Source: Rhizobacter sp. (GTDB lineage Bacteria > Pseudomonadota > Gammaproteobacteria > Burkholderiales > Burkholderiaceae_C). From it: 47,337 nt of DNA. The translations under genes and the position numbers were made by a program. The first letter of the stretch is position 1; each line of letters starts with the position of its first letter. The notes under the pieces are model-generated. The model had not been told where the DNA came from. It searched no databases and saw only the letters and a program-made list of their open reading frames with translations. Below, piece by piece: positions 1,154 to 32,911 of the stretch. The stretch spans positions 1 through 47,337 of the forward strand of contig JAMLIM010000023.1 of the NCBI GenBank assembly GCA_023954175.1, given 5' to 3'.

Positions 1154-1267
1154 TGGTTCGCTTTCAAGTCCCGGGGCATCCTACCCAGCGACACAACGGA
1201 ACTGATCCGAAGCGACTGGAGATAGCTCGCTGACGTGAAAAGCGACCGCTCGCGGGCCGACGAATCG

Positions 1268-1996
1268 TCAAAGCAGTTGATTCGCCGCACCGTGGCAGTG
1301 CTTGTACTTCTTGCCTGATCCGCACGGGCAAGGGTCGTTGCGTCCGACCTTGCCGGCGTTGCGGATGGGCTCGCGGCGCATAGCGGCGGGGGTGCCGCCC
1401 ATCGCCGCGTCGATCCTGCGTTGCTCCAGACAGTGGGCGTGGATCTTTCGTGCAGTCGCGCCCAGGCCGGCTGCCAGCCGCTTGTGCTCTTCGAACGAGA
1501 AAGCCGCCTTCTTCAGCCGCTCCCAGCCTTCTTCCGTGCCGTACAGGATGATCGTGGACAGCCAGTCGGGATGCCCGACCGTGATCGGGAGCCACCCTGC
1601 AAGGTCGAGACTGGCGCCCTTCATGTAGCCCATGCACCATTCGTCGATGACAGGGACCGGGTCGCCTTCGCGGACGTTCTCCATCAGCAGCGGCTCGTAT
1701 TCGTCCGGCGTTTCGACAAGCGCCGCTGCCACTGCGTTCATGTGGCGCATCAACAGTCCCATGATCCGCTGTGCCTGCTCCATGCTGGAGAAGACCGGGC
1801 TGTCCTCGCCCGTTTCCGTGTCCCAGACCCATCGCATCCACTCGCTCGGCAGGATGGTCCTCGGCCCCGACACGATCGCCGCGAAGAAGCCATCGAGCAT
1901 GGAGATGTCCATCGACTCGTCGATGCCCTCGGCATCAAGCAGGAAGCGATCGAGTTCCTCGAGTTCGTCGTCTGTCAGTGGATCCTGGCTCGACAT
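1268..1996 (-). CDS. UPF0149 (YecA/YgfB) family protein with C-terminal SEC-C motif
   Basis: A 242-residue soluble protein. The N-terminal two thirds match the UPF0149/YecA family: an acidic start ([11 protein letters not shown]), a MLDGFFAAI segment, and an EWCMGYMKG block around residue 118. The C-terminus is a SEC-C zinc-binding motif, [17 protein letters not shown], with Cys-x-Cys and Cys-His ligands, as at the end of SecA. Such proteins are thought to be chaperone or ribosome-associated adaptors; the exact job is not established. It is a single gene between the Mrr-like nuclease and a tRNA, both on the same strand, with no sign of an operon. The length is normal for the family. Confidence 0.85.
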
Positions 1997-2112
1997 GGCT
2001 ATCGCTCAGCTGAAAGCAGGTGCAGCGTCGGTGATTCGTTGGTCGACTTGTTCCGATCAAGGCGTGACCGCCGCCGACCGCACCGGCGCTCCGGCCAACA
2101 TTTCGGGAGGGG

Positions 2113-2189
<77 letters not shown>

Positions 2190-2385
2190 GCTCGCGGGGA
2201 TTGTAGGCACCGGTCCCTCGCATCCGATTCGCATCCTGTGCGCCGATATACACGCGCGGTACCAGCCCGACGGTAGCGCGGCAGCCTGCCCTGCTCTCGC
2301 GCGCGCCTCGCAAATCCATCTGTCGCTGCGCGGCCGATCGCAAAGCCGTGTAACCTGCCGCCCACGGATAGCTGGAGGAACAGGC

Positions 2386-2997
2386 ATGCCGCACTACAAG
2401 TTGACGTACTTCGATTTCGACGGCGGCCGCGCCGAACCGATTCGCATCGCCTTTCATGCCGGTGGCATCGCGTTCGAGGATCACCGTCTCTCGTTCCCAG
2501 AGTTCGGCGCGTTGCGCGACAAGCTGCGCTTCAAGGCGGTGCCCGTGCTCGAGATCGACGGTTCGATCGTCACGCAGTCCAACGCGATGTGCCGCCATGT
2601 CGGCAGGCTTTCGGGCCTGTACCCCGAGGACGCGATGCAGGCCCTGTATTGCGACGAGGTGCTGGACGCGGTGGAGGACATCTCGCACCACATGGGCGCC
2701 ACCTTCGGCCTGAAGGATGAGGCGCTGAAGATCGCGCGCGAGCAGTTGGTGAAGGGCCCGTTGTCGACCTTCATCAAGGGGGCGGATGAGCTGCTTGCGC
2801 GCGGTGGCGGCAGCTACTTCGCCGACGGGCGAATGACGGTCGCCGACCTCAAGGTCTTCGTGCAGACCCGCTGGCTGGCCAGGGGCACGCTCGATCACGT
2901 TCCGACCGATCTGGTCGACCGTCTGGCGCCGGCACTGGCCGAGCACCAGGACCGCATCGCCAAGGACCCGCGCGTCGTCGCCTACTACGCGCGTTGA
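2386..2997 (+). CDS. Glutathione S-transferase family protein (sigma/mu-like)
   Basis: A 203-residue GST. The N-terminal thioredoxin-like domain has the sigma/alpha/mu-type signature: Tyr8 in LTYFDFDGGRAEPIR as the likely catalytic tyrosine, then the cis-Pro AVPVLE and the glutathione-binding VTQSNAM (Gln-Ser). The helical C-terminal domain holds the N-capping region FADGRMTVADLKVF. It conjugates or peroxidatically reduces substrates with glutathione; the substrate is unknown. The start ATG has a good ribosome site (GGAGG about 2371-2375). It is followed 40 bp later by fumC on the same strand, so the two may be co-transcribed. Substrate classes cannot be told from sequence. Confidence 0.88.
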   Translation: MPHYKLTYFDFDGGRAEPIRIAFHAGGIAFEDHRLSFPEFGALRDKLRFKAVPVLEIDGSIVTQSNAMCRHVGRLSGLYPEDAMQALYCDEVLDAVEDISHHMGATFGLKDEALKIAREQLVKGPLSTFIKGADELLARGGGSYFADGRMTVADLKVFVQTRWLARGTLDHVPTDLVDRLAPALAEHQDRIAKDPRVVAYYAR

Positions 2998-3037
2998 TGT
3001 GCACTGAGATGGCTTGCGGGCATCGACGGAAGCTGCC

Positions 3038-4450
3038 ATGACGGCGACGCGCACAGAGCACGACACGTTTGGCGACATGGGCGTTCCCGCCGATCGCCTG
3101 TGGGGCGCGCAGACGCAGCGCTCGCTGCAGCACTTCGCGATCTCGACCGAACGCATGCCGCATGAGCTGTTGCGCGCGCTCGCCCGCGTCAAGCGCTGCG
3201 CGGCCGAGGTGAACGCCGGGCTCGGTCTGCTCGATGCGGCCAAGGCGGCTGCGATCGTCACCGCGGCGGACGAGGTGCTGGCTGGCCGCCACGACGACGA
3301 GTTCCCGCTCTCGGTCTGGCAGACCGGATCGGGCACGCAGACCAACATGAACATGAACGAGGTGCTCGCCAATCGCGCCTCGCAGTTGTTGGGCGGCGCG
3401 ATCGGGATGGATCGGCTCGTGCATCCGAACGACGACGTGAACCGCGGCCAGTCGTCGAACGACGTTTTCCCGACCGCGATGAGCGTCGCCGCCGTGCTCG
3501 CGATCGAGACGGCGCTGCAGCCCGCGCTCGCCGCACTGCGCGAGACGCTTGCAGCGAAGGCAGCCGCGTTCGCCGACATCGTGAAAATCGGCCGCACGCA
3601 CCTGCAGGACGCAACGCCGCTCACGCTCGGGCAAGAGGTCTCGGGCTGGGTCGCGCAGCTCGACCACGGCCTCGCGCACCTCGACGCGGCACTGCCGCAC
3701 CTGCGCGAGCTGGCGCTCGGCGGGACGGCGGTCGGCACCGGGCTCAACACCCATCCCGACTTTGGCCGGCTCGTCGCCGCGGCGCTGAGCGAGGGCTGCG
3801 GCACGCCGTTCGTCAGCGCGCCCAACAAGTTCGAGGCGCTCGCCGCGCACGACGCCATCGTGCATGCGCACGGGGCGCTGAAGACGATCGCCGCGTCGCT
3901 GATGAAGATCGCGAACGACGTGCGCTGGCTCGCGTCGGGGCCACGCTCGGGGCTGGGCGAGATCCGCATTCCGGAGAACGAGCCCGGCAGCTCGATCATG
4001 CCGGGCAAGGTCAACCCGACGCAGTGCGAGGCGCTGACGATGGCCTGCACGCAGGTCTTCGGCAACGACGTCGCGATCAACATCGCAGGCGCGTCGGGCA
4101 ACTTCGAACTGAATGTCTACAAGCCGGTGCTGATCCACAACCTGCTGCAAAGCGTGCGCCTGCTGGGCGACGGTGCGCGCAGCTTCGAAGAACACTGTGC
4201 GCGCGGCATCGAGCCGGTACGCGAGCGCATCGCGGAGCTGGTGCAACGCTCGCTGATGCTCGTGACGGCGCTGAACCCGCACATCGGCTACGACAAGTCC
4301 GCGGCGATCGCGAAGGCGGCACACACCAAGGGCAGCACGCTGCGCGAGGCGGCGATCGCTTCCGGCTGGGTCAGCGCCGAACAGTTCGACGCCTGGGTGC
4401 GTGCCGAGGACATGGTCTCGCCCCATCCGCCCGACACAGCGCCGAAGTAG
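3038..4450 (+). CDS. fumC: Class II fumarate hydratase
   Basis: A 470-residue class II fumarase of the aspartase/fumarase superfamily, which interconverts fumarate and malate in the TCA cycle without an iron-sulfur cluster. Visible motifs are [13 protein letters not shown] (substrate site), [14 protein letters not shown] (A and B sites) and the superfamily signature [11 protein letters not shown] with its catalytic serine loop at about residue 310. I chose the ATG at 3038 because the family starts close to the [23 protein letters not shown] block; the frame is open from a TTG at 3014. The length is normal. It sits 40 bp downstream of the GST gene. Confidence 0.96.
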
Positions 4451-27488: not shown

Positions 27489-28082
27489 TCAGAGGCTACC
27501 CTTGGTCGAGGGAATCACGCCGGCCGCGCGCGGGTCGGGGCTGAGCGCCATGCGCAGCGCGCGCGCGAAGGCCTTGAACACGGTCTCGCACTGATGGTGC
27601 GCGTTGTCGCCCTTGAGGTTGTCGATGTGCAGCGTGACGAGCGCATGGTTCGCGAAGCCCTGGAAAAACTCGAACGCAAGCTGGCTGTCGAAGCCGCCGA
27701 TCATGCCGGCCTTGAACGGCACATGCATGTGCAGCCCGGGGCGGCCCGAGAAGTCGACGACGACGCGGCTCAGCGCTTCGTCGAGCGGCACGTAGGCGTG
27801 GCCGTAGCGCGTGAGCCCGGCCTTGTCGCCGACCGCCTGCGCGACCGCCTGCCCGAGGGTGATGCCGACATCTTCCACCGTGTGATGGCCGTCGATGTGC
27901 AGATCGCCCTTGGCGTCGATCTCGAGGTCGATCAGGCCGTGGCGCGCGACCTGGTCGAGCATGTGGTCGAAGAAGCCGATGCCGGTCGCGAGCTTCGCGG
28001 CACCGCTGCCGTCGAGGTCGACCCGCACGCGGATCTGCGTTTCCTTCGTGTTGCGCTGGATCTCGGCGATGCGGTGTTGCAT
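27489..28082 (-). CDS. hisB: Imidazoleglycerol-phosphate dehydratase
   Basis: A 197-residue monofunctional HisB (no phosphatase domain). Metal-binding motifs are [11 protein letters not shown] and [23 protein letters not shown] and the C-terminal [10 protein letters not shown] are typical. The ATG at 28082 gives the standard N-terminus [19 protein letters not shown]. It is placed 2 bp downstream of hisC. Histidinol phosphatase is therefore expected elsewhere. Confidence 0.96.
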
Positions 28083-28084
28083 GG

Positions 28085-29173
28085 CTACAGGCTCGCTTTC
28101 AGGGCGTCGATCATCAGGGTGTTCTCGTCCGGCGTGCCGACCGTCAGGCGCAGGCAGTTCGCGAGCAGCGGATGCATGCCGGCGATGTGCTTGACGAGCA
28201 CGCCGCGCGACTTCATGCCCTCGAACGCGCGTTTCGAGTCCGGCACGCGCACGAGGATCATGTTCGCTTCGCTCGGGAACGGCGTCACGCCCGGCTGCGC
28301 GGCGAGCGCCGCCATGAGCCTGGCGCGCTCGCTGCGAAGGATCGTCGCCTGTGCGGCGAAGACGTCGGCATGCTCGAGCCCGAAGAGCGCCGTCTCTGCG
28401 TTGAGCGCGCTGACGTTGTACGGCGGGCTGACCTTGTCGATCTGTTCGATCAGCGCCGCGGCGCCCGCCATGTAACCGAGGCGCACGCCTGCGAGGCCGA
28501 ACTTGCTGAGCGTGCGCATCACGAGCACATGCGGGTGCGCGGCCATGCGCGGCATCCAGCTGCGCGAGGAGAACGGCTGATACGCCTCGTCGAACACGAC
28601 GAGCCCGTCCTGCGCGCCGACCGCTTCGACCACGCGCTCGACGATGCGCTCGTCGTAGAGGTTGCCGGTCGGGTTGTTCGGATAGGCGATGTAGGTGAGC
28701 GCCGGGCGTTCGCGCGCGATCGCATCGAGCATCGCCGCCTCGTCCAGTTCGAAGCGCGCCGTCAACGGCACGCCGATGAAGCGCAGGCCGCGCAGCCGGG
28801 CGGACAGCTCGTAGAGCACGAAGCCCGGCAGCGGCGCGAGCACCGCCGCGCCCGGAACGTTGCAGGCGACGGAGAGCAGGTCGATCAATTCGTCCGAGCC
28901 GTTGCCGACCATCACGCTGCAGCCTGCGGGCACGTCGAAATGCCTGGCGAGCGCCGCGCAAAGCTCGGGCTTGCCGATCGGATAGCGGTTGATCGCGACG
29001 CGCGCGAGGCGCTCACCGAGCGCACGCTGCAGTTCGGCGGGCAGCGCGAAGGGGTTCTCCATCGCGTCGAGCTTGACCATGCCCGCGCTCGGCTGGATCG
29101 CGTAGGCGGCGCTCGACTGCACGTCCTGACGGATCGTGCGCGCGATGCGGCGCGCGAGGTCGTCGGTCGTCAT
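28085..29173 (-). CDS. hisC: Histidinol-phosphate aminotransferase
   Basis: A 362-residue PLP-dependent class II aminotransferase converting imidazole acetol phosphate and glutamate to histidinol phosphate. Visible are [35 protein letters not shown] and the PLP Lys in [15 protein letters not shown]. The start overlaps the end of the HisD-GNAT fusion by 4 bp (ATGA), so translation is coupled to the fusion. This fixes the fusion stop as the normal end of the upstream gene. Confidence 0.96.
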
Positions 29174-30984
29174 GCGGCGTCCTTCAGTTGCAGCACCATC
29201 TCGCGCTCGCCCTCGTGAACCTTGCCGGTGTAGTGAAAGCCGAAGCGCTCGTAGAACGCGCCGACCGAATTCTCCGGCACGTGCGACAGACCGACCTGGG
29301 CGACGCCGATCCGGCGCGCCTCGCCGATCACCCAGCGCATCGCCGCGCTGCCATGGCCGCGCCCCTGGCGCTTCGCATCGACCATCAGCCGCCAGACGTA
29401 CAACTCGTCGGTCGGCTCCTCGGGGTCCTGCCGTGCGTCCCACAATAGCAAGAAGCCGACCGGCTCGCCGTCGGCGAAGACGCCGAACGGCCGGCCGGAA
29501 GTCTTGTACGCCGCCTGCGCGAGCGAGACGGCATTGGACGCGACGAACTTCTTCTGTTCGGGCGTGGGCTCGAGCTTGATGAGCGGCAGCACGTCGGCGT
29601 CGCGCACCGGCCGCACCTCGACGCTGCTCGGGTTCGATGTTGCCGCGGTCGTGTCGGCGGCGGTGACGGCATCCGCGCCAAGCCGCATGCGTGCCGCCCG
29701 CGCATGCGCATGCAGGCCTTCGCCATCGGCCAGTTCGGCGGCGATCAGGCCGAGCGTCTGCGCGCCGGCTGCACTCACCTCGATCAGGCTGCTGCGCTTC
29801 TGGAAGTCGGTGACGGCAAGCGGCGACGAGAAGCGCGCCGTGCCCGCCGTCGGCAGCACGTGGTTCGGCCCGGCGCAGTAGTCGCCCAGGCTCTCGCTCG
29901 TGTAGGCGCCGAGGAAGATCGCGCCGGCGTGGCGCAGCAGCGGCTCCCAGCGCTGCGGGTCGCGGCTCGACACCTCCAGATGCTCGGGCGCGATGCGGTT
30001 GGCGATCTCGCACGCCTCCTCCATCGAGCGCGTCAGGATCAACGCGCCACGACCTTCGAGCGAAGCGCGAATCACCTCGCGCCGCGGCATCTCGGGCAGC
30101 AGCCGGTCGATCGCCGCGTGTACCGCGTCCAGGTAGGCGGCGTCGGGGCTGAGCAGGATGCTCTGCGCCAGCTCGTCATGCTCGGCCTGGCTGAACAGGT
30201 CCATCGCCACCCAGTCCGCCGGCGTGCTGCCGTCGGCGAGAACGAGGATCTCACTCGGCCCGGCGATCATGTCGATGCCGACCTGGCCGAAGACCTGCTT
30301 CTTCGCGCTCGCGACGTACGCATTGCCGGGGCCGGTGATCTTGTCGACCCGCGGCACGCACGCGGTGCCGTAGGCGAGCGCGGCGATCGCCTGCGCGCCG
30401 CCGATCGTGAAGGCGCGCGTCACGCCCGCCACGTGCGCCGCAGCGAGCACCAGCGCGTTGCGTTCGCCCTGCGGCGTCGGCACGACCATCACGATGTCAC
30501 GCACGCCCGCCACCTTGGCCGGCAACGCGTTCATCAGCACGCTCGACGGATAGGCCGCCTTGCCGCCCGGCACGTAGATGCCGACGCGGTCAAGCGGCGT
30601 GACCTTCTGCCCGAGCAGCGTGCCGTCGGCGTCGCGGTAGCGCCAGCTGCGCCCGCAGGCGTCGAGCTGGCGCTCGTGGTAGGCACGGATGCGTTCGGCG
30701 GCGGCCTGCAAGGCGCTGCGCTCCGCCGGCGTGATCGCATCGAACGCGGCGGCGAAGTCCGCAGCGCCCAGCGTGAGCGCGGCCATCGAATCGACGCTCA
30801 GGCCGTCGAAGCGCTGCGTCAACTTGATGAGCGCCGCGTCACCGCGCACCCGCACGTCGGCGATGATCTCGGCCGCCGTGCGCTCGACCGTGGCATCCGC
30901 CTCGGTCGATCCGTACTGCAGCGCCGCCAGCGCCGCGTCGAAGTCGGCGGCGCGGGTATCGAGGCGGCGCAACTTGACGGTCAT
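29170..30984 (-). CDS. hisD: Histidinol dehydrogenase fused to a C-terminal GNAT acetyltransferase
   Basis: A 604-residue two-domain protein. Residues 1-435 are a complete HisD, which oxidises histidinol to histidine with NAD: Zn/catalytic residues appear in [32 protein letters not shown] and [14 protein letters not shown], the normal HisD end. An Ala/Thr/Ser linker (about 436-452) leads to a full GNAT domain (453-604; DNA about 29173-29628) with [19 protein letters not shown], where QGRGHG fits the acetyl-CoA Q/R-x-x-G-x-G/A loop, and [23 protein letters not shown]. The GNAT resembles the BltD/diamine acetyltransferase group. The frame is unbroken, and the gene overlaps hisG and hisC by 4 bp at both ends. 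The acetyl acceptor is unknown. The start is ATG 30984. Confidence 0.95.
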
Positions 30985-31640
30985 GACGCTCGCAAAGTAC
31001 GCGCCGCAGTAGCGCCCTCGAACGCGTCGATCAGCGCGCGCAGCGCCTCGCGCTTGAGCTTGAGCGCCGCCTGGTTGACGATCAGGCGCGCCGAGATCGG
31101 CATGATCTGCTCGACCTCGACGAGCCCGTTGGCCTTGAGCGTGTTGCCGGTGGAGACGAGGTCGACGATCGCGTCGGCCAGGCCTGTGAGCGGCGCGAGT
31201 TCCATCGAGCCGTAGAGCTTGATCAGGTCGACGTGCACGCCCTTGTCGGCGAAGTGGTCGCGCGCGCACTGCGTGTACTTGGTCGCGACGCGGATGCGCG
31301 AGCCCTGCTTGACCGCAGCGGCGTAGTCGAAATCGGCGCGCACCGCGACGCTCAGCCGGCAGCGCGCGATGCCGAGGTCGAGCGGCTGGTACAGGCCCTG
31401 GCCGCCGTGCTCGAGCAGGATGTCGTGGCCGGCGACGCCGAGGTCGGCGCCGCCGTACTGCACATAGGTCGGCACGTCGCTCGCGCGCACGAGCACGACG
31501 CGCACGTCGGGCCGGCTGGTGCCGAGGATGAGCTTGCGCGACTGCTCGGGGTCTTCGAGCACCTCGATGCCCGCCGCCTTCAGCAACGGCATCGAGTCGT
31601 CGAAGATGCGGCCTTTCGAGAGGGCGAGGGTGATCGTCAT
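30981..31640 (-). CDS. hisG: ATP phosphoribosyltransferase, short form
   Basis: A 219-residue HisG that couples PRPP and ATP, the first step of histidine synthesis. Blocks include [42 protein letters not shown] and the PRPP loop [14 protein letters not shown]. It lacks the C-terminal regulatory domain of long HisG, so it should work as a hetero-octamer with HisZ; no hisZ is in the window. It overlaps murA upstream and hisD downstream by 4 bp each (ATGA). Confidence 0.96.
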
Positions 31641-32911
31641 GTGCCAACGCGCTCGATGTCCGCGCCGAGTGCGCGCAGTTTGGTCTCGATCCGGTCGTAG
31701 CCGCGGTCGAGGTGGTAGATGCGATCGACGACGGTCTGCCCTTCGGCGACGAGGCCGGCGATGACGAGGCTGGCCGAGGCGCGCAGGTCGGTCGCCATCA
31801 CGGTCGCGCCCGAGAGCTTCGCCACGCCCTCGACGACCGCGACGTGGCCGTCGATCGAGATGTTCGCGCCCAGGCGCATCAGCTCGTTGACGTGCATGAA
31901 GCGGTTCTCGAAGATCGTCTCGGTGACGACGGCGTTGCCCTCGGCAATGCAGTCGAGCGCCATGAACTGCGCCTGCATGTCGGTCGGGAAGGCCGGGTAC
32001 TCGCTGGTGCGAAAGCTCACGGCCTTCAGGCGGCCCTCGCTGCGCACGCGGATCCAGCCGCGCCCGTCGGCCTCGCCGGACTCGACGACGGCGCCCGCTT
32101 CGCGCAGCTTCTCGATCACCGCCTCGAGGTGCCCGGCGCGCGCATCGCGCAGCAGCACGTCGCCGCCCGCCGCCGCCACGGCGCAGACAAAGGTGCCGGC
32201 CTCGATGCGATCGGGCACGATGCGGTGCGCGACGCCGTGCAGCCGCTCGACGCCCTGGATGCGGATGCGGCTCGTGCCGTGGCCCTCGATCTTCGCGCCC
32301 ATCGCGATCAGCATCTCGGCCAGGTCGGGAATCTCGGGCTCCTGCGCGGCGTTCTCGAGCAGCGTCTCGCCGTCGGCAAGCGTCGCCGCCATCAACAGGT
32401 TCTCGGTACCGGTGACGGTGACCATGTCGGTCACGATGCGCGCACCCTTCAGGCGCTTGGCCCTGGCGATGATGTAGCCGTGCTCGACGCTGATCTGCGC
32501 GCCCATCGCCTGCAGACCGAGGATGTGCTGATCCACCGGCCGCGAACCGATCGCGCAGCCACCGGGCAGCGAGACCGTCGCTTCACCGAAGCGCGCAAGC
32601 AGCGGCCCGAGCGCGAGGATCGACGCCCGCATCGTCTTCACAAGTTCGTAGGGTGCTTCGGGCGAGGTCAGCGCCGAGGCGTCCAGCATCACCTCATGGG
32701 GCCGTTCGGCGCTGCGCTCGACGGCGACGCCCATGTTGCGCAGCAGGCGCAGCATCGTGTTCACGTCCTGCAGCTGCGGGACGTTCGCCAGCCGCACCGG
32801 CTCCGCCGTCAGCAGCGCGGCGCACAGCTCGGGCAGCGCGGCATTCTTCGCGCCCGAGATCGTCACTTCGCCGTTCAGGCGACGCCCACCGCGAATCAGG
32901 AGTTTGTCCAT
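31637..32911 (-). CDS. murA: UDP-N-acetylglucosamine 1-carboxyvinyltransferase
   Basis: A 424-residue enzyme for the first committed step of peptidoglycan synthesis. Lys in [16 protein letters not shown] and the fosfomycin-target Cys in [16 protein letters not shown] (about residue 118) are present, as are the [20 protein letters not shown] block and the end [19 protein letters not shown]. Because the active-site Cys is intact, no fosfomycin-resistant Asp form is expected. Its stop overlaps hisG by 4 bp. bolA lies 66 bp upstream on the same strand. Confidence 0.97.

Follow-up and report, generated by a model that had tools for sequence, protein, structure and literature searches.

On the minus strand of the window (the whole 47,337-nucleotide stretch of DNA analysed here), a his operon contains a gene in which hisD is joined in frame to a GNAT acetyltransferase. 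The fusion gene occupies positions 29170..30984, as defined by its open frame, its DNA ends and its Pfam domains, and translates as a single frame of 604 residues plus a stop codon, with no internal stops. It is preceded by hisG (30981..31640) and followed by hisC (28085..29173) and hisB (27489..28082), and murA (31637..32911) lies just upstream of hisG with a 4-bp overlap; all are on the minus strand. The fusion gene shares 4 bp with hisG and 4 bp with hisC. Both overlaps read ATGA in the DNA, the first (30981-30984) comprising the hisG stop and the hisD start, and the second (29170-29173) the GNAT stop and the hisC start. A preliminary description of the locus had proposed a complete HisD, a linker of about 17 residues and a complete GNAT within one 604-residue frame that overlaps its two neighbours by 4 bp, all of which was borne out. 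It had named a stop or frameshift within residues 435-453 as a possible refutation; none was found there.

Other species show the same architecture with neither a stop nor a frameshift, so a sequencing error in one assembly is ruled out. The hisD::GNAT fusion is a real, native gene of the his operon and not an artefact. In-frame stops that were first apparent in the fusion frames of genomes G115 and G140 proved to be terminal stops. A second fusion, 78% identical, is present on another contig (C106) of the window's assembly. This copy (locus L001) is a mosaic, showing 98.4% DNA identity to locus L023 from within hisD onward and about 80% before that point, and its contig may reflect recombination, contamination or an assembly chimera.

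HisD half, linker and acetyltransferase domain

The HisD part (residues 1-436; 29677..30984, minus strand) scores above the cut-off for both NCBIfam hisD (TIGR00069; 510.7 bits against a cut-off of 243.8) and Pfam Histidinol_dh (PF00815; 541 bits, residues 28-435). In an alignment of 33 HisD rows, Q266, H269, E334, H335, D368 and H427 are invariant; we paired these by motif with Q259, H262, E326, H327, D360 and H419 of E. coli HisD, which we take to be its zinc-site and catalytic residues. The best PDB match by sequence was 9lbv. An AlphaFold model of the whole protein (mean pLDDT 83.4, pTM 0.66) gave values below 50 for HisD residues 235-244 and 373-389. With its complete domain, zinc-site and catalytic residues and place in the his operon, the N-terminal half is predicted to be an ordinary HisD that converts histidinol to histidine in an NAD-dependent manner. 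HisD usually ends after this first domain (26 of 27 unfused relatives read; L022 was read past its end), whereas the window protein continues into a C-terminal GNAT. The HisD of L131 and L032 carries an in-frame tandem repeat of about eight residues (RNALVHGQ-like) after the motif MVVPTP.

The two halves are joined by an Ala/Thr/Ser-rich linker (residues 437-453; 29626..29676, minus strand) that is disordered in the AlphaFold model (pLDDT below 50). The stretch matching residues 435-457, which has 23 residues in the window, varies from 14 to 39 residues over 33 rows. In this linker stretch an ATG occurs in four of the 33 rows, only GTG or TTG in 26 and no start codon in three. Translation of a separate GNAT from an internal start was rejected as the general case, given that the linker start codon is not conserved.

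The GNAT domain (residues 454-604; 29173..29625, minus strand) matches Acetyltransf_1 (PF00583) over residues 490-583 with 46.7 bits against a cut-off of 20.7. A Q/RxxGxG/A acetyl-CoA motif and a tyrosine general acid are hallmarks of GNATs. The acetyl-CoA loop QGRGHG, described beforehand as intact, is so and lies at residues 540-545; Q540, G543 and Tyr578 are invariant in 36 GNAT rows, and G545 is conserved in 35 of them, with alanine in the other. The preliminary description had called for a fold prediction, and the GNAT part models confidently, with pLDDT mostly 81-93 within the whole-protein model and a mean of 93.6 when residues 452-604 were modelled alone.

Foldseek searches with the GNAT model returned PaiA, SpeG and many other GNATs at E values of about 1e-9 to 1e-7 (best 1.3e-9), and the 50 matches listed have TM scores of 0.62-0.76 and identities of 13-23%. 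By sequence, the top PDB match was 4bmh, an unspecified acetyltransferase (E 6.5e-5), followed by weak matches to the spermine/spermidine acetyltransferase (SSAT) of E. faecalis (E 2e-4 to 3e-4). The domain fell below the cut-off of the RimI NCBIfam equivalog (18.5 against 86.4). Neither Pfam nor the models showed a second GNAT domain in the fusion protein, which sets it apart from the double-GNAT fold of HisAT/NAT16. Kinship to polyamine-type GNATs, which had been suggested for this domain, held only in part: it is weak by sequence (E. faecalis SSAT) and general by fold (PaiA, SpeG and others). The domain shares a single GNAT fold, the acetyl-CoA loop and the tyrosine general acid with the SSAT-type enzymes PaiA, BltD, E. 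faecalis SSAT and SpeG, but differs from them in its low identity among the Foldseek matches listed and in its fusion to HisD. From its sequence and model it would be an amine-type GNAT whose acceptor can be named as a candidate only.

Selection was assessed as omega in 15 chosen pairs, which are not independent of one another, using a counting method written for this analysis. Omega was 0.06-0.34 for the GNAT and 0.05-0.48 for HisD; three pairs involve the mosaic L001, including the two highest HisD values. In the linker, omega ranged from 0.06 to 1.5 and exceeded 1 in eight of the 14 pairs with a value. GNAT omega is low while the linker drifts, which argues that the tail is maintained for its sequence. 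By this measure, the GNAT tail is under purifying selection.

Distribution and genomic context

A pattern scan of genome contigs, built from a 13-row GNAT alignment, gave 47 stretches, of which 34 are relatives. At 31 of the 34 loci a complete HisD lies upstream in the GNAT's own open frame, and at two more HisD is in that frame and cut by the contig edge; the contig of the last, L047, begins at the GNAT, leaving HisD out of view. The loci come from Rubrivivax, Ideonella and Aquincola, or are labelled Burkholderiales, Burkholderiaceae or beta-proteobacteria, and one is labelled only Proteobacteria. Those without a metagenome-assembled genome (MAG) label are Rubrivivax rivuli KYPY4 (L045), AAP65 (L041) and AAP99 (L049). 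Because fused GNATs supplied the scan patterns, little can be read into the lack of unfused relatives in that scan.

Profile searches are free of this bias. They placed the fusion in 13 of 299 genomes of the window's family, representing six of 141 genera, at 215-253 bits; among these 13, the fusion of G098 was checked. A further 28 matches of 62-135 bits occurred in 23 family genomes, and none of the 20 that were read is fused to HisD (rows below 50 bits, many of them partial, were left out of the counts). In the phylum set, the fusion was found in one of 398 genomes, the window's own; 20 other genomes gave matches (70-125 bits), but their open frames reach 284 residues at most and cannot hold HisD. 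Some genomes belong to both the family and the phylum set, and 12 of the 34 scan loci apparently come from genomes already counted. Plasmid records with a match numbered 419, none covering more than 80% of the query, and HisD alone was covered among the ten of these matches listed. A genome count of this architecture had been proposed as a check, and with HisD in frame at 33 of 34 loci the fusion is, by these searches, a trait of many species in a Rubrivivax-related group. One fusion-bearing genome, G140, also carries an unfused relative of the GNAT (L090, contig C14).

The his context is retained. hisC lies downstream at all 34 loci, at distances from an overlap to 3.7 kb, and hisG lies upstream at all 31 loci with a complete HisD. 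murA is upstream of hisG at 14 of 34 loci and was not found at the other 20, many of which extend about 4 kb beyond HisD on the upstream side. None of murA, hisG, hisD, hisC or hisB occurs near the 20 relatives not fused to HisD, in the stretch fetched around each (mostly about 6 kb on each side, less at contig ends). A pre-fusion arrangement, with the GNAT beside hisD, was not seen at these 20 loci, whose neighbouring genes could be annotated only roughly because their list of open reading frames contains many spurious ones. Relatives of the GNAT are fused elsewhere to DUF924 (L092:363-1460) and to a cupin domain (L106:6011-7135), and an open frame read by eye joins one to another GNAT (L096, around 2000-2950).

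Several loci carry additional genes. A two-gene insert of about 0.75 kb separates the fusion gene from hisC at L025, L040, L044, L046, L047, L051 and L053, and L048 retains a remnant of it. The insert consists of a small antitoxin-like gene and a PIN-domain (VapC-like) gene, with repeated CACGAA/TTCGTG words ahead of them; in the only copy scanned (L040), PIN was above the cut-off and the small gene gave a DUF6364 match below it. At L042 (3751-4623) and L049 (3825-4637), a second, different GNAT gene lies between hisG and hisD::GNAT, and a cupin domain ends that of L042 and was not found in that of L049.

Evolutionary history of the two halves

The 36 fused rows (including L047, whose HisD is out of view) form one clade in a tree of 78 GNATs, with support of 99/91, and require one change; the placement of three long unfused rows, S_L096 among them, is unsure. 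The HisD tree, with 34 fused and 27 unfused rows, requires four changes. Its resolution is poor and its bootstrap had yet to converge; the unfused rows were picked as the most similar to the window, and among the fused ones are the mosaic L001 and a genome that is present twice (as L032 and L131). A single fused clade for the HisD halves was rejected (AU p 0.00018). Since the HisD halves are not one clade, the tail would have been lost and probably exchanged. Change counts on a tree cannot by themselves separate gain from loss.

Two further observations bear on loss. The same-genus genome G204 has no GNAT tail, and neither has L130 (genome G269, of the same genus as AAP65), whose HisD is sister to the fused HisDs of AAP65 and R. 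rivuli with support of 100/99. The GNATs of AAP65 and R. rivuli lie deep inside the fused clade, so that loss in L130 is the simplest reading. The HisD of L130 itself continues in frame into HisC without an intervening stop (1186-3663; PF00815 and PF00155), forming a HisD-HisC fusion.

Exchange is indicated at L039. Over 33 rows, the GNAT data reject the L028-L034-L039 grouping of the HisD tree (p 1.9e-5), and the HisD data reject the L037-L038-L039 grouping of the GNAT tree (p 0.009); a grouping of L028 with L029 was not rejected by the HisD data (p 0.25). All of these groupings were picked after the trees were seen. In AAP99, murA, hisG and hisC diverge more than at any other locus of the set and hisB is also towards the low end of the range; with its his neighbours also divergent, genome-wide distance can explain the AAP99 HisD without transfer. 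We read the trees as one probable gain of the tail followed by several losses and some exchange by recombination.

Sixteen positions set the fused clade (36 rows) apart from 42 relatives not fused to HisD, a comparison set of 20 nearer relatives from the family and 22 farther ones from the phylum. R498 is present in 34 of 36 fused GNATs, where 19 of the 20 nearer relatives have tryptophan and four of the 22 farther ones have arginine; R518 and W551 are each present in 36 of 36; and H568 is present in 35 of 36, where 19 of the 20 nearer relatives have tyrosine or cysteine. R498, R518, D520, W551, H568 and M596 are outside the search patterns used to find the loci. L513, L528, Y529 and V530 are within them, so their conservation is partly built in. 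On the model, the clade-specific residues map to the start of beta-2, the beta-3/beta-4 loop, a helix (W551), the end of beta-5 and beta-7. Most of these regions bind acceptors in other GNATs. The replacement of W by R498 and of Y or C by H568 suggests an acceptor unlike that of the nearer relatives.

Function of the acetyltransferase tail

We infer that the GNAT is catalytically active and that its acceptor belongs to the histidine pathway. Our preferred reading, to which we assign a probability of roughly 0.38, is that the protein is a bifunctional HisD/N-acetyltransferase that would act on a small amine, for which histidinol and histidine (at the alpha-amine) are the first candidates. In its favour are the HisD found in the GNAT's frame at 33 of 34 loci, the retained his locus, the single clade of fused GNATs, the low GNAT omega and the residues peculiar to that clade. 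The polyamine-binding residues of SpeG are mostly acidic in the portion of the report available to us (PMC13212360), and the basic residues gained in the fused clade would suit an acceptor unlike a polyamine.

On this preferred reading, the HisD half would oxidise histidinol to histidine with NAD, and the flexible linker would tether one GNAT domain whose catalytic motifs are intact and which could move an acetyl group from acetyl-CoA onto a small amine nearby. A flexible tether would fit a substrate that is released near the GNAT and diffuses to it better than one passed along a closed channel. Acetylation might then keep down histidinol that escapes, an amino alcohol able to inhibit histidyl-tRNA synthetase, or limit an excess of histidine. 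In HeLa cells, histidinol inhibits protein synthesis at this synthetase, according to the part of the source available (PMC4695845), and human NAT16 provides a precedent for histidine acetylation by a member of the GNAT family (PMC12219266). A more specific form, which we regard as doubtful, is that N-acetylation of histidinol or histidine by the tethered GNAT serves for overflow or detoxification, adding a new branch to histidine metabolism in the Rubrivivax-Ideonella-Aquincola group. Against the preferred reading, the tail is, on the evidence of the trees, dispensable, as in G204 and L130 and as implied by HisD halves that do not form one clade; GNAT relatives also have other fusion partners, and NAT16 has a double-GNAT fold that the window protein lacks.

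Nearly as likely as a histidine-linked function is that the GNAT is active in a job unrelated to histidine, on a polyamine or another small amine or in detoxification, and that it is a mobile tail to which fusion and its place in the operon would give no more than steady expression. The joining of GNAT relatives to DUF924, cupin and, by eye, another GNAT is consistent with this, and means that fusion to HisD alone is no proof of a histidine link; so are the SSAT-type sequence and fold matches (PaiA, SpeG and E. faecalis SSAT), the different histories of the two halves of L039 and the patchy presence in 13 of 299 family genomes. A mobile tail fits less well with HisD being the partner at 33 of 34 fused-clade loci (the contig of the other starts at the GNAT) with the his locus kept, with acceptor-side residues peculiar to the clade, and with the lack of his genes near all 20 relatives not fused to HisD, in the stretch fetched.

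We consider it improbable that the acceptor comes from another pathway represented in the same operon, such as an aminosugar or another amine. The overlap of murA with hisG in the window, and its position upstream of hisG at 14 of 34 loci, would suit this, but it was not found at the other 20, so that the murA link is not general, and no feature of the GNAT points to sugars. Less probable still is regulatory acetylation of lysines of HisD or other His enzymes, for which only the physical tethering speaks; the relatives include many small stand-alone GNATs, and Pfam found no regulatory domain in the fusion. A non-functional passenger tail or assembly artefact, for which the absence of the tail in G204 and L130 might speak, is already largely refuted by the low GNAT omega beside a drifting linker, the motif residues invariant in 36 rows and the recurrence of the fusion in other assemblies.

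Relation to known systems

Fusions among his genes that also include HisD, such as HIS4 (HisIE-HisD), differ from the present one in joining histidine enzymes to each other, as far as the available text of PMC1963479 describes them. The words 'acetyl' and 'GNAT' are absent from the main text, as available, of two papers on his fusions and operons (PMC1963479 and PMC10138114). The literature search found one histidine acetyltransferase of the GNAT family, human HisAT/NAT16, which acetylates histidine and has a double-GNAT fold, according to the available part of PMC12219266; it shares the superfamily and possibly the reaction with the window protein, which instead carries a single GNAT on HisD. 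Searches for a HisD-acetyltransferase or acetylhistidinol returned nothing relevant by title and start of abstract among open-licence PMC papers, although domain-architecture databases may list the combination, and no open-licence PMC paper was found on histidinol dehydrogenase in Rubrivivax. The preliminary description knew of no described HisD-GNAT enzyme, which agrees with these searches, but the architecture is not unique to one genome. The fusion joins two known enzyme families in a new way, undescribed as far as open-licence PMC papers were searched.

Conclusions

Histidine is made by a textbook pathway that also serves as a model for how gene fusions evolve. In ArgH-ArgA fusions, a GNAT is likewise found at the C-terminus of an amino-acid enzyme, where it performs a known step of the pathway; we know of no acetylated intermediate in histidine synthesis. 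An acetyltransferase joined to HisD is a hint that histidine synthesis may be linked to a chemical side step not recognised so far. If the tail does act on histidinol or histidine, a whole bacterial group would have an unrecognised acetylated branch; if it acts elsewhere, the fusion would be a clear example of a core enzyme acquiring a catalytic tail that selection maintains, that is sometimes lost and that may also be exchanged.
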